Notes under the pieces: generated by a model | What the model saw: only the letters and a program-made list of their open reading frames with translations | What the model was told of the DNA's origin: nothing | The model's database searches: none | Made by a program: the position numbers and the translations under genes | From: Planctomycetota bacterium | GTDB taxonomy: Bacteria > Planctomycetota > Planctomycetia > Pirellulales > Pirellulaceae | Assembly (NCBI GenBank): GCA_026692905.1 | Contig: JAPLNL010000037.1 | Span: forward strand, 1-55,488 | Reading direction: 5' to 3' | DNA length: 55,488 nt | Shown: positions 12,239 to 35,605 of the stretch, piece after piece | How positions within the stretch are numbered: the first letter of the stretch is position 1 | How the letters are laid out: each line of letters starts with the position of its first letter

Positions 12239-13507
12239 ATGGGCAAAACCACGGATTTTCAAGAAACCTGGGTTATCGAGACCGCCGATTTGGTGATCGG
12301 ATCGACGTTAAGCTTCGATCTCAACGACGCGAAGGGTGCCGTTCTTCATAAATCGGGCGCTCCTATTTCCAGACGGCTGCTCGATCTCCTGGAAAAAAAA
12401 GGCATTCGTTCCGTCACAGTCAAGGGGCACCAACCTGTTTCGGATGACTTCCAATCCGTTCTTTTGTCGCACTATGATTCGGCAAAAATGGATCGGTTGG
12501 ATCAAGTCTTCGCCGAATGCGAAGCGTCACTCAGGCGGTTTCTCCAATGCCTACAACAAAAAAGAATGGGAGATACGGCTGATTTGGTTTTGCAAGTTGA
12601 CCAGTTTATGGCTCAAGCGAAGAAAGATTCGTCTGCAGCATTCGCCATGCTTTCCAGTCGCATTCAAGCATCGCCACCCGAGATCATCGATAGGATCACT
12701 TCTCGGTCCACCACTTTAGCGTTGATGGGTGTTACGACCGGTGTCCTGATGGGGCTTTCCCGAGAGGATTGCGGCTTGGTTGGAATTACGGGGCTGTTGC
12801 ATGATTGTTCTCTCTTGTTGCATCCCGAATGGTTTCGTAATGGTGCGATTATCGCCAATCCAAAGGTTATCGAAAAGTTTCGAAATCATCCGATCGAGAG
12901 TATGGAGTTGCTAAAAGAGATAGATGGATTCGACGCCGAAGTCTTAACAGCGATTGCTCAGGTACACGAACAGTTTGATGGCTCGGGATTTCCTCATGGC
13001 CTTTCAAGCGGGGTTCCGATTGCGGCTCGCGTTTTAAATGCGGCGGACGCATACCTAAACTTGGTGCTTCCCTTATTTCCAACGAAGCGCATTGTGCCGG
13101 CTGATGCACTGGCAGTACTTTGCCACAACGCTGCTAAACGAAGGTTTGATCCAAAGGTGGTGCGAAGCCTCATCAGGGGAATGTCCATCTATCCAATCGG
13201 TTCGATCGTAGAACTCGATGATCAATCGGAAGCGATCGTCGTAAGTAGCAATTCGACGAATGCGATGGAACCGACCGTTCGTCACTTGAATGCGGAAAAC
13301 GGCGCAATGGATCTAAGCAAGTCCCCGCGAATCATTGTCGGTCCAAGTACCCGCGGCGATGCTTCCGTAGTTCGCGTCGCGAGGTCGAGTTTGAACGAAT
13401 CGCTTTGGCGCTACGATCTCGAAACGGACGCAATATCCTCTCTCCGGGAGGGTCGGCCAGAGGCCGGGGAGGTTGAACTGGCTTGTACAATTGCCGCTAG
13501 CAGTTAA
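12239..13507 (+). CDS. Degenerate HD-GYP domain protein
   Basis: The 422-residue protein begins with the short segment common at the N-terminus of HD-GYP proteins (GSTLSFDLNDAKGAVLHKSG, about residues 21-40). An HD-GYP core follows at about 165-310. Visible motifs are LLHD (HD pair), NHPIESMELL (third histidine) and VHEQFDGSGFPHGL in place of HHExxDGxGYPxGL. The lysine of HDxGK is missing (the sequence is HDCSL) and GYP is GFP. HD-GYP enzymes break down cyclic di-GMP; these changes suggest altered metal binding or a sensor role. It stands alone on the plus strand. Confidence 0.8.
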   Translation: MGKTTDFQETWVIETADLVIGSTLSFDLNDAKGAVLHKSGAPISRRLLDLLEKKGIRSVTVKGHQPVSDDFQSVLLSHYDSAKMDRLDQVFAECEASLRRFLQCLQQKRMGDTADLVLQVDQFMAQAKKDSSAAFAMLSSRIQASPPEIIDRITSRSTTLALMGVTTGVLMGLSREDCGLVGITGLLHDCSLLLHPEWFRNGAIIANPKVIEKFRNHPIESMELLKEIDGFDAEVLTAIAQVHEQFDGSGFPHGLSSGVPIAARVLNAADAYLNLVLPLFPTKRIVPADALAVLCHNAAKRRFDPKVVRSLIRGMSIYPIGSIVELDDQSEAIVVSSNSTNAMEPTVRHLNAENGAMDLSKSPRIIVGPSTRGDASVVRVARSSLNESLWRYDLETDAISSLREGRPEAGEVELACTIAASS

Positions 13508-13516
13508 CCCTACCCT

Positions 13517-13540
13517 CGCTTCGGCTGACTGTTAAACGAG
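13517..13540. repeat. Partial copy of the family C motif
   Basis: The stretch CTTCGGCTGACTGTT matches one arm of the full inverted repeat at 23674-23730. It lies just after the HD-GYP-like gene and shows that this arm occurs alone as well as in pairs. Confidence 0.5.
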
Positions 13541-13649
13541 TGAATCAGCTAGCCCCCCAGTCTCGTCAGAACCTAAGGGTTCGCAGCTGGCGGCGAATCC
13601 GAAAACGAATCATTTTCAGCGTTGACACGGGAATCTCGTCGGCTAGACT

Positions 13650-13872
13650 CATGCCTAAGTGTGGTGGCGAGGGAGTCTTGACTCCTATTCGCAAACAGGG
13701 AACTTCGGTGAAATTCCGAGACGGTCCGGCCGCTGTAAGTTATCCGCGATGCATTTGTGTGTCGCAACCAGAGCTTCCTTCTAACGGGAAGTGCCATTGC
13801 TCGAATTCGAGTGAGAAGGCAACGAAGCTTGGGTGATGACGAAGTCAGAAGACCTACCATGCTTGTGGCATG
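13650..13872 (+). ncRNA. Cobalamin riboswitch-like leader
   Basis: Conserved parts of the cobalamin aptamer are visible in order: GGGAA (13698-13702), GGTGAAATTCC (13707-13717), GGCCGCTGTAAG (13728-13739), and the 3' box AAGTCAGAAGACCTACC (13842-13858). A closing P1 stem can be drawn. 13657-13667 pairs with 13854-13864 over 11 positions including G-U pairs, and is extended by CATGCC (13650-13655) with GGCATG (13867-13872). Peripheral hairpins occur near 13776-13790 and 13800-13811. The gene starts at 13955, so the RNA sits in its leader. Cobalamin riboswitches normally turn off B12 uptake or synthesis genes when B12 is plentiful. The match was made by eye. Confidence 0.85.
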
Positions 13873-13910
13873 TTATCGTCCTCCGGGTTTGGGACGCGTG
13901 CTGGTTTTTT
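13858..13910 (+). promoter_or_regulatory. Candidate riboswitch expression platform
   Basis: CATGC (13858-13862) can pair with GCATG (13868-13872), which would use bases that also form the 3' side of P1, so the two folds exclude each other. A second hairpin (CGTCC at 13877-13881 with GGACG at 13892-13896) is followed, about 8 nt later, by six T residues (13905-13910). This may be a weak terminator. The mechanism is inferred from pairing only. Confidence 0.45.
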
Positions 13911-13954
13911 CGTGAATTTCACGGCCGATGTTGCCCTTCCCTTCAGGACCGACC

Positions 13955-14797
13955 ATGCTCCAGCGCGTAATGGCTCTTTCGTTTTTCGTTTTCATGTTCA
14001 ATTCCCCGGCACTCGGGGACATGATTACGTTCGAAGACAAGACGACGTACACGGCAACGGGTGCCAATGGAAGCTACTACAACGGAAATTCAGGCACCAA
14101 CGTTTCGAACTCGGCAGGATGGAGTTCTGGAGGCGTTCAATTCAACAATGCTTATGATGGTACCTTTAATGTTTGGTCCGGATTTGCCTACTCAAGCGTT
14201 GCGAACTCAACCACCGCTGGGTTTACCAACCAATACGCAGCATTTCCAGGCGGCGGTTCTTCTTCGTCGCAATACGCAGTTGCCTTTAACTTTGGTCAAG
14301 GAGACGCAGTTGTCTCTTTTGCAGCACCCGTCACTGTAAACAGTGCGGACTTTGCGAATACAACATACACGGCGCTCTCCATGCGAGATGGCGATGCGTT
14401 TTCGAAAAAATTTGGAGGCGATTTAGGAAACGACCTCGATTTCCTGCGACTCGATGTTTACGGGTATTTAGGAGGCGTCAATACAGGTACGACCAGTCTG
14501 TACTTGGCGGACTATCGGTTTAGCAACAACAGCTTGGACTTTATACTCAATGGATGGTCCACGCAAAATCTTACAGGGCTGGGCGTGGTGGACTCGTTGC
14601 AATTCGATTTGATTTCCAGCGACGTCGGCGTATTTGGAACGAACACGCCAACGTATTTTGCCTTGGACAACTTGAGCATTACAGCAGTACCCGAACCGAC
14701 AACCGTTGCGATGATTTCTTTGGCTTCGGTTGTCGTGTCGTTTTGTCGTAGAAAAAAGCGTTTGCCAAGTCACCAGAACGAAAAAGCTCCGTCATAA
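13955..14797 (+). CDS. DUF4465-like PEP-CTERM secreted protein under a B12 riboswitch
   Basis: I choose ATG 13955 because AGGA lies 6 nt upstream and the protein then begins with a clean signal peptide (MLQRVMALSFFVFMF). An in-frame ATG at 13928 is less likely. The mature part looks like a DUF4465 domain: an N-terminal TFED-type start, WSGFAYSSV, NQYAAFPGG, MRDGDAFSKKFGGD, LADYRF and NTPTYFALDN. It ends with the sorting signal VPEPTT, a hydrophobic helix and RRKKR. PEP-CTERM signals route proteins to the cell surface by exosortase. With the upstream cobalamin riboswitch, a role in capturing B12 or related cobamides outside the cell is a reasonable hypothesis. Confidence 0.85.
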   Translation: MLQRVMALSFFVFMFNSPALGDMITFEDKTTYTATGANGSYYNGNSGTNVSNSAGWSSGGVQFNNAYDGTFNVWSGFAYSSVANSTTAGFTNQYAAFPGGGSSSSQYAVAFNFGQGDAVVSFAAPVTVNSADFANTTYTALSMRDGDAFSKKFGGDLGNDLDFLRLDVYGYLGGVNTGTTSLYLADYRFSNNSLDFILNGWSTQNLTGLGVVDSLQFDLISSDVGVFGTNTPTYFALDNLSITAVPEPTTVAMISLASVVVSFCRRKKRLPSHQNEKAPS

Positions 14798-14808
14798 AGG
14801 ATTGTGCC

Positions 14809-15639
14809 ATGGAACGAAGAATCGTCTTTCGAGCCGCATCGATCGCCGAAGCACCGGGGTCTTGGAAGCGGACTGGTGTGACCATGGTAGAGCTATTGGT
14901 CGTGTTTGCGATTATTGGCGTCTTGGCCTCTGTGCTATTGCCCGCGGTTCAATTTGCGAGGGAAGCAGCAAGGGGATTTTCTTGTAAGAACAATTTGAAG
15001 CAAATTGGGCTCGCACTGCACAATTATCACGATGTGAATCGCGTGCTACCTGTTGGATGCCTCGAATGGCGTGGGTTTCGAACCCCACCTGCGAACCGGC
15101 AATTGGCGTGGTCCTCGTTCCTGTTACCCTTTTTGGAGCAACAGACACTCCATTCCCAGATCGACTTTGGTAAAGCCTTCGATCATGCGATCAATGCCAA
15201 ACCCGCTGCCCAGCGTCTAAGTGTGTTTGAATGTCCAACGGCGCAGAATCGAACTTTGATACGAGCCCAAACCGATTACGGCGGATTGTTCGGAGAGATC
15301 ATCCTGGATCGCGAACAAGATGATGGAGTTTTCTTGTACGATCGGACCATTGCTCTACGCGATATTCTCGATGGAACGACAAACACCATCGCCGTGTCAG
15401 AGGACATTGGCGGTCCAGACAGCGAATGGATCAACGGACGAAATGTCTTCGTGCAAAGCGGGGGCATCAACGACCGGACGGTTTGGATCGGTGACAATGA
15501 AATTCGCAGCAAACACCCAGGCGGCGCGATGGTCTTGTTCGTCGATGCACGCGTTGTCCTGCTGGGGGACTCGACAGACAAACGCGTGCTTGGCCAATCC
15601 ATTACGAGAGCGAAACAGGAGGCTAATTCCTTGGAGTAA
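14809..15639 (+). CDS. DUF1559 prepilin-like protein
   Basis: The 276-residue protein has a type IV prepilin-like N-terminus: a basic leader of about 23 residues, then GVTMVELLVVFAIIGVLASVLLP with the glutamate at position +5 relative to the methylated residue. The DUF1559 signature NNLKQIGLALHNYHD follows. The C-terminus has HPGGAMVLFVDARV, typical of the family. AAAGG overlaps the stop of the DUF4465 gene and sits 8 nt before this ATG, so both genes are coupled and share the riboswitch. DUF1559 proteins are abundant in planctomycetes and of unknown function; a pseudopilin role is likely. Confidence 0.88.
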   Translation: MERRIVFRAASIAEAPGSWKRTGVTMVELLVVFAIIGVLASVLLPAVQFAREAARGFSCKNNLKQIGLALHNYHDVNRVLPVGCLEWRGFRTPPANRQLAWSSFLLPFLEQQTLHSQIDFGKAFDHAINAKPAAQRLSVFECPTAQNRTLIRAQTDYGGLFGEIILDREQDDGVFLYDRTIALRDILDGTTNTIAVSEDIGGPDSEWINGRNVFVQSGGINDRTVWIGDNEIRSKHPGGAMVLFVDARVVLLGDSTDKRVLGQSITRAKQEANSLE

Positions 15640-15721
15640 GCACCATTGCTTTGGAGATACCCAGTTTAATCACCCTCCCTCTGGAAGGGTCGAGCGAAGC
15701 GAGGGGAGGGTGAAGTCACCG

Positions 15722-15827
15722 CTGTAAACATGTTTCCAACGAGTTTACCTAAGTCATTCATTGCTCGGGAGGGTGAGGCTCCTGCCGAACCTTTGTACCG
15801 TTGGCTCGGCAGGAGCCTCTCCCTCCC
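15722..15827. repeat. Family A 106-bp repeat, third copy
   Basis: Same 106-bp element as 65-170, differing at four positions. The hairpin arms are GAGGCTCCTGCCGA and TCGGCAGGAGCCTC. Another short hairpin (CCCTCTGG to GAGGGGAGGG, about 15675-15710) precedes it. It lies between the DUF1559 gene and the convergent aldolase gene. Confidence 0.85.
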
Positions 15828-15894
15828 GAGTAAAAAGGTGCCCAGTTGAAGTCGGCGCGAAGTGACTTTGAACTGCTAAAACTCTTGCCAAACC

Positions 15895-18087
15895 CTACCG
15901 CAAGAACGCCTCGTAAAGACCGCCGTCGACCGAGATGATCTGGCCTGTTGTCTTGCTAAGGCGTTGGCCGACCAAAAGGAAATAGGCTTCGGCTTGATCC
16001 GCCGGGGTGATGGGCGATTTGGTCAGCGTGCGGTCCGCATAAAACTGAGCGAGTTTTTGCACCAGCGACTCGGTCGATTCATTTTCGGTGTAATCGATAC
16101 GGTATTTGGACAACGAGCCGATAACGCGATCGCGAGGAAACATAGCGCTTCCCTGTACCACGGTCGCGGGAGCGACACCGTTCACTCGAACGAGCGGTGC
16201 CAATTCGATCGCAAGTTCGCGGACCAAGTGATTAGCTGCTGCCTTACTCGTATCGTATGCCACGCTTCCCTTCTTGGCGACCGCCGCATTCGCACTTGTC
16301 GTAAGAACCAAATTTCCATGTAGACCTTGCTCCAGCCAGTTCTTGCCCGCTTCGTCTGCGACCAAGTAGCTACCGGTCACGTTGATCGCAAAGGTCAAAG
16401 CCCATTTTTCATCCGGAATATGGCCTGTGGTATCGGAGGCGACAAAGATACCTGCGGTGACGCATATCGAATCGAAACCGCCGTACGCCAAGCTCACCTG
16501 ATCCAACATCGCACGCACGCTTACTCGCTTCGTGATGTCGCAACCCAAGCCAACCGATGGTCCACATCCCGAAATACCACTGCCGGCGACCCCGATCCCG
16601 AGTCCATGCTTGTTGGTTATTTCGGTAGCGGTGGCGACTGCCGTTTCCTCGTTCAAGTCGACGCATACGATGTGTGCTCCTTCACGAACGAGCCGATGCG
16701 CTGTCTCTTTGCCAATGCCGGAGCCTGCTCCAATCACCACAATGACTTGCCTGGCCAATTCTTTTTCTGCTGGCATGCGTTTTAGTTTTGCTTCTTCAAG
16801 CAACCAATACTCAATGTCGAATGCCTCTTGAAGCGGCAACGCAATGTAGCGATCGATAGCTTCGGCCCCTCGCATCACCTCGACAGCACAGTTGTAGAAC
16901 TCGGCTGTCACACGCGACTCGGATTTGTCTTTGCCCCATGCGATCATGCCTAAGCCTGGTATCAACATGACCGTAGGATTCGGATCTCGCATCGCGGGCG
17001 AGTTAGGTCGCTTGCAGGTCTCATAATACGACGCGTAGTCCTGCCGGTATTGTTCTAGTCCAAGCGTCAACTTGGCTTTGAGCGATGCAACAGTCTCTGT
17101 TTGAGGGTTCCAGTCGACGTACAGGGGCTTGATTTTGGTTCGAAGGAAGTGATCGGGGCAGCTTGTGCCAAGTTCCGCAAGTCGAGGTGCATCATGCGAG
17201 TTCACGAATCGCATGATGGTGGAGTCATCTTGAATAGTACCGACGAATCGGCGTTTCGCGCTCACTTGGCCTCTGAGCCACGGCAAGATAGCAGCCAGAG
17301 TTGCATGTCTGGCAGGTTGATCTAACGTTTGATACTTCAAGCCACCGAAGGCGGTTTTATCACCTCCCTTGGCTTGGTATCTCGAGTCAATATGAGCAGC
17401 AGCGGCCTCGATCATGTCCAACGTCAGCGTGTAACATTCCTTTTCGTCATCTGCCCACGAAATGAACCCATGCTGGCCCATCATGATGGCTTGCAGTTTC
17501 GAATTCTTTTTGGAAATTTCTTGCATGGCCAACCCCAACTCAAAGCCGGGTCGCATCCAAGGGACATAAGCCATTGCGCCTCCAAAGATCTCGTGAGTCA
17601 GTTCCTGGCAGCGATGGCTGGCAGCGATCGAGATGATCGCGTTGGGGTGCATGTGGTCGACATGTTTGCCCGGCAAGAAACTATGCAGTGGCGTATCGAT
17701 AGAAGATGCTCGCGGGTTTAAATTGAAAGTCGTGTGGGTATACATCCCAACCATGTCGTCTTCGGCTTGTCCTTTGTAGCCTTTGTCGGGCCGACCCGAA
17801 TAGAGTTGCTGTAGCTCGAGAAGCTTATTCTGGTAAAGGGATGAAAAGTTCTCGCGAGTTGACGTTCTGAGATCGCCACCAGAACCCTTGACCCAAAGCA
17901 CTTCGGTTGGGCAACCTGTAAGTGGATCCTTTTCCGTGAGCTTCGCGGATGTATTGCCGCCACCTGTGTTGGTGATACGCTGGTCTGAGCCAAGAAGATT
18001 GGAGCGGTAGATCAGTCTGCCGACCGGATCAAAGCTGGCTGCTTTTTCATCGTTCCAGGCGTAGCAGACAAATTTATACGACTTCAT
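15895..18087 (-). CDS. rhaEW: Bifunctional rhamnulose-1-phosphate aldolase / lactaldehyde dehydrogenase
   Basis: A class II aldolase domain (about residues 10-420) is fused to a short-chain dehydrogenase (about 440-730). The aldolase part has SNLLGSDQRITNTGGGNTSAK and the metal-site segment HVDHMHPNAI. The dehydrogenase part has VVIGAGSGIGKETA and YDTSKAA (YxxxK). This is the RhaE-RhaW (YuxG) layout that splits L-rhamnulose-1-phosphate and oxidises the lactaldehyde formed. I start at ATG 18087 (MKSYKF), which matches the family N-terminus; an in-frame ATG at 18168 would add 27 residues. No other rhamnose genes are adjacent, and fuculose-phosphate as substrate cannot be excluded. Confidence 0.88.
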   Translation of the reverse strand: MKSYKFVCYAWNDEKAASFDPVGRLIYRSNLLGSDQRITNTGGGNTSAKLTEKDPLTGCPTEVLWVKGSGGDLRTSTRENFSSLYQNKLLELQQLYSGRPDKGYKGQAEDDMVGMYTHTTFNLNPRASSIDTPLHSFLPGKHVDHMHPNAIISIAASHRCQELTHEIFGGAMAYVPWMRPGFELGLAMQEISKKNSKLQAIMMGQHGFISWADDEKECYTLTLDMIEAAAAHIDSRYQAKGGDKTAFGGLKYQTLDQPARHATLAAILPWLRGQVSAKRRFVGTIQDDSTIMRFVNSHDAPRLAELGTSCPDHFLRTKIKPLYVDWNPQTETVASLKAKLTLGLEQYRQDYASYYETCKRPNSPAMRDPNPTVMLIPGLGMIAWGKDKSESRVTAEFYNCAVEVMRGAEAIDRYIALPLQEAFDIEYWLLEEAKLKRMPAEKELARQVIVVIGAGSGIGKETAHRLVREGAHIVCVDLNEETAVATATEITNKHGLGIGVAGSGISGCGPSVGLGCDITKRVSVRAMLDQVSLAYGGFDSICVTAGIFVASDTTGHIPDEKWALTFAINVTGSYLVADEAGKNWLEQGLHGNLVLTTSANAAVAKKGSVAYDTSKAAANHLVRELAIELAPLVRVNGVAPATVVQGSAMFPRDRVIGSLSKYRIDYTENESTESLVQKLAQFYADRTLTKSPITPADQAEAYFLLVGQRLSKTTGQIISVDGGLYEAFLR

Positions 18088-31305: not shown

Positions 31306-32217
31306 ATGTATTATTCAAGCCTAGGTTCGGTGGCCTTCCTCGGACTACTCTTTTTTGATGTTTGTTTTTCAGTGGCACCTGCAACCGCTGGATTGATATT
31401 AAACCCAGCAGGAACCGTAGTTATAGAAGCTTCACCAATTCCACTCGAAGCCCGAGTCAAGCTGACCTCAGGATTGGTTAGTGGTGTTGAGGGTTTCGCG
31501 GGAAGATACTTTGGCGAAACCAAGGGGGATATCTACGTTTCGGAAAATGGCCATTTGGTTTTTGCGGCTGGTGAAGCTGATTTTCCAGTACCACTGGGCA
31601 GTTCGCAAGCAAGTATTGCTCCGCTTTGGGACGATTACCTGTTGATCCAGTCTACCGTATCACAACCCGTCAACAATGCGGTTTTAGCAGATTATTCGTC
31701 TGGCCATTACCTAGCTGTTACTTGGCAAAATGTACGATTGGAAGTGGAGACGGTTGCTGGCGAGGAATTTCCTGACACCAATCGCTCCACACAGGTTGTA
31801 TGGTTTGAGGGTGATACCATGATTCGAGGTTTCGAATTTAAGAAGGATGATATCGCGTTTGGCTATGTTCCTCATACAAGCGGCGCGGACTTTGGTGACA
31901 TTGCTGCAGTTGCAGGCCTCGATAAGGGAGATGGTACCTTTTCGGCAATCCAGGGTACTACCGATGGCTCTTTATCTGCTTCACAAGGTAACCTTTTGGC
32001 GCCAGGCGAAAACAACTTTTTGCTTTTCCGACCAGGAGTTGCAGGGTCTGTTCCCAATAATTTCACCGCAGACAGTTTTCAAGGCGGTTATTATCGAGGG
32101 GCTTTTTCATTAACCGCTGTTCCCGAACCTTCGTCGCTCGGGTTGTGCTTCGTATCAGTCGCAATCGCAGTTGGTTTCGCGATTCGGCGCAAGATCAGTT
32201 CATTTTCATGCTCTTGA
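31306..32217 (+). CDS. PEP-CTERM protein with nidogen-like domain
   Basis: The 303-residue protein has a signal peptide (up to about PATAG) and ends with VPEPSS, a hydrophobic helix and RRK, the PEP-CTERM exosortase sorting signal. The middle has features of a NIDO (nidogen extracellular) domain: YVSENGHLVF, IAPLWDDYL, YLAVTWQNV and TQVVWFEGDTMIRGFEF. NIDO domains occur in adhesive surface proteins. The gene is divergent from the pilin-like gene, and its 3' end overlaps the 3' end of the convergent gene by 23 bp. Confidence 0.8.
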   Translation: MYYSSLGSVAFLGLLFFDVCFSVAPATAGLILNPAGTVVIEASPIPLEARVKLTSGLVSGVEGFAGRYFGETKGDIYVSENGHLVFAAGEADFPVPLGSSQASIAPLWDDYLLIQSTVSQPVNNAVLADYSSGHYLAVTWQNVRLEVETVAGEEFPDTNRSTQVVWFEGDTMIRGFEFKKDDIAFGYVPHTSGADFGDIAAVAGLDKGDGTFSAIQGTTDGSLSASQGNLLAPGENNFLLFRPGVAGSVPNNFTADSFQGGYYRGAFSLTAVPEPSSLGLCFVSVAIAVGFAIRRKISSFSCS

Positions 32218-33931: not shown

Positions 33932-35605
33932 TTAGGGGGCTTGCGAATTCGGCTCGGAATGGAGGCCATTAAACGAATGCGTTTCTTTACAAGCGTGGCT
34001 GTCTAAAACCAGCTTCGGAGAAATGAAGATGGCAACTTCCGCATCTTGTTCCTGCTTTTCAATAGTTTGAAAAAGCTTTCCGGCAAGTGGAATCCGACTC
34101 AAAATGGGGATTCGATTGACACGCTCAACGGTCTGGCGCTGGACTAAGCCACCTATAACGATTGTATGTCCTTCTGGAACATTGACGTTTGTCGATACAT
34201 TCCGACGGTTGATGCTAGGGTATTGGTTGGAATTGGGAACCGCTTCGCTACTAGGGAGATATTCACTCACCTCTGCCTTCGTGATCGAGACGGAAATCAT
34301 GTCGCCATGCAATCTGGGTGTAATATCGAGGCTGATTCCGGCCTCGACTTTCTGGATCGTGGGTGAAAAAAAAGCGTTTGCGGCCGAGCCTTGTAGGCTA
34401 AAGTACGTTTCACGATTGATCGAAATATTTGCTTTTTCCCCATCCTTGGTTGTCACTCGAGGTTGTGCCCGAATCGTGATATACCCTTCCTGAGCTAGCA
34501 GTCGGACGAAAGCCGACGTCACGGCGAAATCAGAGAATGCGTTCCGAGTGCCTGAGGAGCCTGAAAAACTCAATCCGGTCATACCTGCCTTGAGTGAGTC
34601 AACTCCATTTATACCCACCACGTGATTCCAGTCTAAACCGAAGCGAAAGCCACTATCTGGTGCGACAACGCAAACAATCGCTTCAAGCTCGATCTGAGCG
34701 ACGGGAGTATCTATCTCGCGGATTCTTGACAAGATATCTTGCCCTAATTCCGGCGGAGCATCGATCAAGATAAGGTTTCTATTTTCGGAACTGTTGACGA
34801 ATTTTTTGTATCTAACTGGCAGCAGTAACAGGATACCTTTGACATCGTGATGCAGCGGCTCGTACTGATATCGCTTCGAAATCTTCGAATACAAAGGTGA
34901 ATCGGGGTCCGGTGGAGCCACATAATAAGTTCCCTGCTCAAGCGAAAAACAAAGTCCGAGTGGAGCTAACACCTGTGCCAAAGCTTCATCAAATGTAGCG
35001 GCTTGAATTTCGGCGCTGGTAACACCGCCCACCGTATCGTCAACAATAACCCTTTGATTGCTATTTGTTGCAAGAACTTGGATTGCTTCACGCACATCGG
35101 TCTGGTTGAATGTGTCTGTGATATTGCCCTTGGCTACTCCAAGCGGCGTTGCCTCCTGAACGGTATTGGCAGAAATGGGGCGGAGCGAACTGGCCAAAAC
35201 CACAGAATCGCTTGGCTGTTGAAGTAGGTTCGTCCATGGCCCAGAATAGAGCCCAGAATAGAATTGCGGCTCCGAAGCAAAAACCAAGGCGTCTTGAACA
35301 GGGTTGGACGCAATCGCCGAATCGACCTTCGGCAGGAGTTTTGGCAAATCCATGGATGGCCTGGCTTGGGCGTAATTAGATTGAATAGCAGGATGGTTTG
35401 GCTGAATGACCGAAGGCCTCCTGTCTGCGTCTCGCAAGGCTTCGTTGTACAGGTCTCCAATTGACTTACGGTTTATCTTGTTCATTCCCAGGCAGCCACA
35501 TACACTCAAGCAGCAAATGAAAGCGCATACTCCTATGGCACCCTTAATTGGGTTTCTCGAAATGGAGAGCGTGGAAGCATTTTTCATTCTAGGTGGCATA
35601 CTCAT
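33932..35605 (-). CDS. Secretin (type II/III secretion outer-membrane pore)
   Basis: The 557-residue protein has an N-terminal hydrophobic segment ending LSVCGC, a likely lipobox, then a low-complexity stretch. An STN/N0-like domain follows (DVREAIQVLATNSNQRVIVDD, about residues 170-240), then an N1-like domain ending in IREIDTPVAQIELEA. The secretin beta-barrel signature comes last, VPEGHTIVIGGLVQRQTVE and RIPILSRIPLAGKLF. No ATPase, inner-membrane GspF-like or pilin peptidase gene is adjacent. A 25-bp tandem duplication covers the start region, so the true start could be ATG 35605 or ATG 35587. Confidence 0.9.
   Translation of the reverse strand: MSMPPRMKNASTLSISRNPIKGAIGVCAFICCLSVCGCLGMNKINRKSIGDLYNEALRDADRRPSVIQPNHPAIQSNYAQARPSMDLPKLLPKVDSAIASNPVQDALVFASEPQFYSGLYSGPWTNLLQQPSDSVVLASSLRPISANTVQEATPLGVAKGNITDTFNQTDVREAIQVLATNSNQRVIVDDTVGGVTSAEIQAATFDEALAQVLAPLGLCFSLEQGTYYVAPPDPDSPLYSKISKRYQYEPLHHDVKGILLLLPVRYKKFVNSSENRNLILIDAPPELGQDILSRIREIDTPVAQIELEAIVCVVAPDSGFRFGLDWNHVVGINGVDSLKAGMTGLSFSGSSGTRNAFSDFAVTSAFVRLLAQEGYITIRAQPRVTTKDGEKANISINRETYFSLQGSAANAFFSPTIQKVEAGISLDITPRLHGDMISVSITKAEVSEYLPSSEAVPNSNQYPSINRRNVSTNVNVPEGHTIVIGGLVQRQTVERVNRIPILSRIPLAGKLFQTIEKQEQDAEVAIFISPKLVLDSHACKETHSFNGLHSEPNSQAP

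Follow-up and report, generated by a model that had tools for sequence, protein, structure and literature searches.

The window analysed here is a stretch of 55,488 nucleotides, contig C37 of a planctomycete genome of the family Pirellulaceae (assembly GCA_026692905.1; 5.96 Mb in 148 contigs, 95.95% complete), and the subject of this report is a gene pair on its forward strand, in which a cobalamin riboswitch is followed by a gene for a secreted DUF4465 protein and a gene for a DUF1559 prepilin-like protein (Table 1). An earlier note on this DNA, made from the letters alone, had drawn a full cobalamin aptamer before a secreted DUF4465-like protein with an exosortase sorting signal, and had placed a DUF1559 gene 11 bp behind it. 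The models bear out each of these features: the RF00174 match runs over the whole length of the model at more than twice its gathering score, the covariance-model check that had been set beforehand returned a strong match, and both protein families and the sorting signal are recognized. Loci, genomes and contigs are cited below by numbers prefixed L, G and C.

Table 1. Features of the riboswitch locus, in window coordinates, and examples of the X family, in coordinates of the named loci.
Feature	Position	Strand	Evidence
Sigma-70-like promoter, TTGACA-16-TAGACT	13622-13649	+	10/12 consensus bases; overlaps first five bases of aptamer match
Cobalamin riboswitch aptamer	13645-13875	+	RF00174, full length (1-189), 74.9 bits, gathering score 31.5, E 1.1e-16
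Hairpin 3′ of aptamer	13878-13895	+	GUCC-UCCGGGUUUG-GGAC
Secreted DUF4465 (BtuJ-type) protein, predicted cobamide binder	13955-14797	+	PF14717 1.4e-42, 146.4 bits, cut-off 25
PEP-CTERM sorting signal (exosortase substrate) of DUF4465 protein	14684-14752	+	PF07589, TIGR02595
DUF1559 prepilin-like protein, riboswitch-linked clade	14809-15639	+	PF07596 2e-46
Prepilin cleavage/methylation motif and start of pilin helix	14866-14940	+	PF07963 residues 20-44
X-family examples (alignment A4)	L226:4773-5873; L219:2825-3958; L091:2007-2918

The conserved boxes of the aptamer are visible in an alignment with nine relatives, and the window contains no second riboswitch at gathering score. The hairpin just 3′ of the aptamer shows compensatory change in its stem (GUCC/GGAC in the window, GCCU/AGGC in most of the nine relatives), and its loop reads UCCGGGUUUG in the window and CCGG, CCGA, CCGT or CTGG in the relatives. 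We take this hairpin to be the element named P13/L13 of the cobalamin riboswitch expression platform, an assignment that is likely yet not proven because the loop varies in this way. The expression platforms tried were rejected: a scan lists no terminator between the aptamer and the DUF4465 gene, neither an RNA structure sequestering the ribosome-binding site nor a terminator is significant, and 13860-13975 folds no better than shuffled sequences do (z -0.82). Sigma-70-like sites are expected by chance (two observed in 13480-16000, against 1.9 expected from shuffles), so its position is the sole support for the promoter listed in Table 1. Judged from the sequence, the riboswitch is predicted to mediate repression of the downstream operon by B12.

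The likeliest start of the DUF4465 gene is the ATG at 13955, with AGGA six bases upstream, an alternative ATG lying at 13928; the N-terminus of the protein is hydrophobic by eye, and the DUF4465 domain is encoded at 14162-14674. The sorting signal at its C-terminus scores 23 bits with TIGR02595 (NCBIfam), above the cut-off of 16, and 20.1 bits with PF07589 (Pfam), 0.6 below the cut-off of 20.7, and the genome holds two exosortase (PF09721) matches. The PEP-CTERM domain is presumably the entry IPR013424. This entry is present in 88 of 824 members of the DUF4465 family (IPR027828), according to a paper on BtuJ proteins (PMC12751083).

The closest solved relative of the window protein by sequence is 9hmu (E 8e-19), which is the DUF4465 protein D5EK51 of Coraliomargarita crystallised with B12 (PMC13398666). 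Eight distant members of the family are reported to bind B12, including ‘Pan’ of Mucisphaera calidilacus (PMC13398666), which is itself a planctomycete (PMC8882080), and BtuJ1 and BtuJ2 of Bacteroides thetaiotaomicron are B12-binding DUF4465 proteins, BtuJ1 having a dissociation constant of 0.16 nM and conserved B12 contacts at Tyr146, Asn241, Thr242 and Tyr245 (PMC12751083). A profile alignment places the counterparts of these four residues in the window at Tyr 14366-14368, Asn 14642-14644, Thr 14645-14647 and Tyr 14654-14656; the stretch of codons 14642-14656 forms an N-T-P-x-Y motif, kept as N/D/S-T/L-P-x-Y in 111 of the 114 DUF4465 frames that we collected. Because B12 binding in this family is established by published work, the window protein can be predicted with high confidence to capture cobamides. 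The link between DUF4465 and Bacteroidetes cobamide loci, which the earlier note had put forward for checking, is real, as BtuJ1 and BtuJ2 document; its proposal of cobamide capture stands, but the capture domain is not of a distinct kind and belongs to the BtuJ family.

The DUF1559 gene is separated from the DUF4465 gene by 11 bp (14798-14808), and translational coupling of the two is plausible. The methylation motif of its product passes the PF07963 cut-off (22.2 bits against 21.2; 9.8e-05), and a structure model (mean predicted local distance difference test, pLDDT, of 85.6) begins with an N-terminal helix of 52 residues (26-77). The significant solved relatives of its sequence profile are pilins, matched over this helix, and the N-terminus resembles GspG-type pseudopilins, below the cut-off of that model.

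The recurrence of this arrangement was surveyed in 60 genomes from the family to which the window genome belongs and in a sample of 392 genomes of the phylum, gene counts at riboswitch loci being taken from six-frame searches and riboswitch counts in the 60 genomes only from rows passing the gathering score (a row of G021 at 24.9 bits was dropped). In the family, DUF4465 is present in 20 genomes and cobalamin riboswitches in 48, and all 21 DUF4465 genes lie 3′ of a cobalamin riboswitch on the same strand. In the phylum sample DUF4465 occurs in 11 of the 392 genomes, the window genome included; besides the window, a riboswitch stands upstream in 10 of 11 DUF4465 loci, the eleventh of which starts at a contig end, and a DUF1559 or prepilin frame lies within 3 kb at 10 of 11, three of these being on the opposite strand and four having weak scores. 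Planctomycete DUF4465 genes thus do tend to follow cobalamin riboswitches, a tendency on which the earlier note had made its reading depend. A wider set of 80 named DUF4465 loci, the best 80 of 488 found by a planctomycete profile and therefore not a random selection, has a riboswitch at 66; among the 14 without one, 11 have less than 1 kb before the DUF4465 frame, and L243, L248 and L273 show no riboswitch above gathering score in at least 3.7 kb of upstream sequence.

Seen from the riboswitch, the prepilin belongs to the regulon. A DUF1559 gene follows 37 of the 69 cobalamin riboswitches in the 60 family genomes, with DUF4465 in 18 cases and without it in 19; DUF4465 without DUF1559 in first place follows three (L055, where a DUF1559 gene lies 1.4 kb further, L068 and L072), a TonB receptor 17 and other genes 12. 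The last group, in which one to a few members were scanned per cluster, includes class I ribonucleotide reductase, MetE methionine synthase, TonB, DUF6580 and a BtuFCD-like set. In L052 the DUF1559 gene heads an order of CobQ, BtuR, CobU, BtuF-like, BtuC-like and BtuD-like genes, parts of which, for cobamide salvage and import, also stand behind DUF1559 in L035, L074, L076 and L079. L132, from another family, has the order riboswitch, DUF4465, X-family protein (described below), prepilin, BtuF-like protein and ATP-binding cassette (ABC) ATPase, and at L134:6147-6681 two cobalamin riboswitches stand back to back on opposite strands, one facing DUF4465 and the other DUF1559. Around rpoB, used as a control, DUF1559 frames were found at none of 55 loci (276 kb).

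The riboswitch-linked prepilins are also set apart by descent. In a tree holding them beside 29 paralogues from the window genome (the best-scoring of its 43 other match rows) and nine further background rows, the window protein falls inside a 29-row clade (support 99) made up of 28 proteins from riboswitch or DUF4465 loci and one long-branched DUF1559 protein (L038) encoded 4.1 kb behind a riboswitch; this clade and its support are independent of the group-A label, which was set from an earlier tree plus L044. Two further riboswitch-linked clades have five and nine rows (support 100 each), the latter, clade C, comprising riboswitch-DUF1559 units without DUF4465 at nine loci. None of the 29 window-genome paralogues lies inside any of the three clades, and one riboswitch-linked protein, that of L141, stands outside them. 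The sequences thus place the DUF1559 prepilin in a dedicated riboswitch-linked subfamily, and the protein that the earlier note had treated as a follower of the DUF4465 gene is the distinct part of the module.

A second body of evidence concerns the outer-membrane receptor. No TonB receptor lies in the window, as had been remarked before, because the only PF00593 receptor of the genome is encoded on another contig (C139), and this receptor is unlike the BtuB set. For comparison across genomes, a profile (A1) was built from 15 of the 16 receptors in the cluster (L099 excluded), and receptors with an E value below 1e-100 were called BtuB-type; the one riboswitch-linked receptor scanned has TIGR01779 (BtuB) as its best model, with 273 bits, below the cut-off of 599.7. 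A search of the window genome and of G010, from the same genus, with profile A1 at E 1e-5 gave no match. Among the 60 family genomes, 22 have a BtuB-type receptor and 33 a riboswitch-linked DUF1559 or DUF4465 gene, here called the module; three have both (G009, G024 and G053) and eight neither (Fisher p 1.6e-6, a value that, like those below, ignores ancestry).

The same division is seen at the 80 named loci, where a gene counts as near inside about 4 kb per side and weak prepilins were accepted to E 1e-4: a TonB receptor is present at 27 loci and a prepilin at 34, never at the same locus, and 19 loci lack both. All 19 Pseudomonadota loci have the receptor and none a prepilin, 15 of their DUF4465 proteins carrying a VPEP-type tail; the 37 Planctomycetota loci have one receptor and 22 prepilins, and the 11 Verrucomicrobiota loci four receptors and six prepilins, never together. 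The exclusion gives Fisher p values of 0.009 for Planctomycetota and Verrucomicrobiota combined and 0.015 for Verrucomicrobiota alone. Under a stricter rule, by which a prepilin motif has to be legible no more than 2 kb away and on the same strand, 31 of the 34 prepilins are retained, none with a receptor; the verrucomicrobial and phycisphaeral prepilins that were scanned (L226 and L285) have the methylation motif and score below the Pfam cut-off for DUF1559.

On this evidence we lean slightly towards reading the locus as an operon, repressed by B12, whose products gather cobamides at the cell surface, and in which a dedicated (pseudo)pilin would do the job of the receptor. When cobamide is scarce, the riboswitch would permit expression of the DUF4465 and DUF1559 genes; the DUF4465 protein would be exported, anchored by an exosortase and bind cobamide tightly, and the DUF1559 protein would undergo prepilin processing and become part of a (pseudo)pilus, in which it would receive or present the cobamide, or help to move it across the outer membrane, replacing a BtuB-type TonB receptor. 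Import would then be completed by BtuFCD-like proteins, and a BtuF-, BtuC- and BtuD-like set (Peripla_BP_2, FecCD and ABC_tran) does lie under a second cobalamin riboswitch on another contig of the genome. A direct role of DUF1559 in cobamide uptake seems, from the sequence comparisons, somewhat more probable than its absence, and a pilin step accounts most economically for the comparative data. Only tentatively can this be extended to a TonB-independent route of planctomycetes and some Verrucomicrobia, with a dedicated (pseudo)pilin under B12 control in the place of BtuB; it is just as doubtful, if conceivable, that along such a route surface DUF4465 proteins, with or without the X-family protein, capture the cobamide and a pilus-type machine delivers it to BtuFCD.

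Several observations weigh against this reading. No example of vitamin uptake by a pilus is known to us, and comparison of the DUF1559 model with solved structures (Foldseek) gave nothing at E 0.001 or better, its top three matches being pilins. The family is abundant, with 44 match rows in the window genome, and chance alone can put a DUF1559 gene in the neighbourhood not infrequently, since one lies within 6.5 kb at 4 of the 17 riboswitch loci with a TonB receptor; placement directly after the riboswitch is not explained by chance proximity. The nearest Pirellula-type relatives, L209-L217, have the riboswitch and DUF4465 without an adjoining DUF1559 gene, and in G010, from the same genus, the only riboswitch lacks a DUF1559 gene at its site; a pilin is therefore not needed beside every DUF4465 gene. 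L208, 90% identical, has an adjoining one. The C139 receptor is heme/copper-like, models for heme and copper giving its highest scores, all below their cut-offs. Any receptor match at E 1e-5 is found in 35 of the 60 genomes, and ten module genomes (G004, G006, G013, G015, G019, G026, G027, G028, G031 and G045) have only weaker TonB receptors (E 1e-25 to 1e-9), which could be B12 carriers. On an RpoB tree covering 55 of the 60 genomes, where labels were set for 30 of the 33 that carry the module, the exclusion amounts to about three opposite, one same and five no-difference independent pairs and is not significant, and 19 of the named DUF4465 loci have neither receptor nor prepilin.

Some of these points suit another explanation, that DUF4465 alone is the module and the DUF1559 gene, a member of an abundant family, is co-transcribed by chance without any part in uptake. 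The commonness of DUF1559 in the window genome, the close relatives L209-L217 and the three of 21 family DUF4465 loci without DUF1559 directly after the riboswitch agree with it. We nevertheless regard it as unlikely, since it does not account for a DUF1559 gene after 37 of 69 riboswitches, 19 of them without DUF4465, for three supported clades that exclude all 29 of the genome's own paralogues, for the empty rpoB loci or for the DUF1559 gene of L134, which has a facing riboswitch of its own. A somewhat less probable alternative gives the DUF1559 protein a task in export, as a pseudopilin in a type II secretion-like machine through which DUF4465 and other capture proteins reach the surface. 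This would fit the GspG-type similarity of its N-terminus, the eight secretin match rows in the genome and its position beside an exosortase substrate; two of the three clades, however, lack DUF4465 and head cobamide salvage or import operons or stand alone after the riboswitch, and the Pseudomonadota loci pair DUF4465 with a TonB receptor and no prepilin even though most of their proteins are VPEP-tailed.

It is more improbable still that the DUF1559 protein itself binds cobamide, the operon encoding two independent capture proteins and passage through the outer membrane following an unrelated route. The riboswitch-DUF1559 units of clade C would be natural on such an arrangement, and a new ligand site in DUF1559 is possible because past the helix the model matches no solved structure well; yet such a binding site is conjectural, and the failure of prepilin and TonB receptor to co-occur at DUF4465 loci is left unexplained by binding itself. 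The (pseudo)pilin acting in the receptor's place is accordingly retained as the preferred reading, at the slight preference given above.

Measured against known systems, the capture domain is thus already known from the BtuJ family, and the link to a DUF1559 prepilin is the new part. With BtuJ1 and BtuJ2 the window protein shares its domain, the riboswitch control and the four B12-contacting residues (PMC12751083, PMC13398666); the BtuJ proteins of B. thetaiotaomicron are, in contrast, lipoproteins in loci with BtuB, BtuG and BtuCD (PMC12751083), whereas the window protein has an exosortase signal, a prepilin partner and no nearby TonB receptor. The TonB-dependent BtuB-BtuG loci resemble the present system in having a cobalamin riboswitch, a surface B12-binding protein and BtuFCD-like genes (located elsewhere in the window genome), but no BtuB-type receptor was found in that genome and a prepilin stands in its place. 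With type IV pilins, GspG-type pseudopilins and other planctomycete DUF1559 proteins, the window DUF1559 protein has in common the prepilin motif, the long N-terminal helix and PF07596, and it differs from other DUF1559 proteins in belonging to a separate, cobalamin-riboswitch-linked clade. In planctomycetes, pili-like fibres at crateriform structures bind dextran, and periplasmic uptake is described as proceeding without vesicles (PMC5394234); the likeness lies in surface fibres proposed to serve vesicle-free uptake. In the passages on these fibres we found no subunit named and no cobamide connection, and a link between these fibres and the window DUF1559 protein is conjecture. In the open-access literature searched we found neither DUF4465 together with PEP-CTERM, nor DUF1559 tied to B12 or, judged by title, a planctomycete pilin tied to a cobalamin riboswitch; subscription papers were not covered by this search, and the prepilin-cobalamin link may already be in print elsewhere.

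A number of partner proteins recur around these loci. The X family consists of secreted, uncharacterised proteins whose conserved part has no Pfam domain and which adjoin DUF4465 or are fused to it in four named phyla; 60 frames were found in 60 loci, 58 of which also have DUF4465. A weak match of its profile (E 0.007) falls on the second half of 8blw_B, the BtuG1 lipoprotein of the BtuB1-BtuG1 complex. Its structure model, confident only in part (mean pLDDT 61.9), is similar to F5/8C/CBM32 domains and to 8blw_B (E 5e-3). The family may be a second cobamide-handling domain; a search of viral folds returned nothing below E 0.001. L058, L075, L089, L094 and L096 each encode a giant protein (1517-2014 residues) that combines two or three DUF4465 domains with a match to the X family; all five genes lie 3′ of a riboswitch and DUF1559, and the protein of L094, the sole one scanned against Pfam, also contains a dockerin. 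In L082, L045 and L069 a riboswitch-linked DUF1559 gene is followed by genes for secreted VPE-tailed proteins without a DUF4465 match, which are candidate alternative capture proteins; the idea that the partner proteins of L069 and L045 are hidden DUF4465 domains was not supported by profile comparison.

Riboswitch arrangements and operon contents vary further. Two cobalamin riboswitches stand back to back on opposite strands at L240:1508-2055, and at L246:3228-3615, in a metagenome-assembled genome placed in Myxococcota, a cobalamin riboswitch is followed by a c-di-GMP-I-GGC riboswitch and then a DUF4465 gene, a tandem that is possibly a two-signal switch. The riboswitch-linked DUF1559 gene of L059 is followed by genes for ABC exporter-like, HlyD-type and outer-membrane efflux proteins. 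DUF6580 (PF20221) recurs in cobalamin riboswitch operons (L062, L075 and L095 by scanning, L041 and L091 by clustering), and its protein is a candidate inner-membrane part of a cobamide or cobalt transporter. In the window genome, B12 use is attested only by the two matches of a PF02310 search, a radical SAM protein that binds B12 and a regulator-like protein carrying B12-binding domains; nothing resembling MetH or a mutase was among them. Elsewhere in the window lie a second VPEP-tailed protein, recognized by eye (31306-32217, forward strand), and a secretin gene (33932-35605, reverse strand; PF00263 at G000:C37:34007-34498).

Outer-membrane passage of large vitamins is thought to require TonB-dependent receptors. 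A recurrent riboswitch-controlled prepilin in the receptor's place would make a second outer-membrane route directly testable. One branch of the very large planctomycete DUF1559 family would gain its first functional setting, and cobamide would become a testable cargo for the fibre-linked uptake that has been proposed in planctomycetes.

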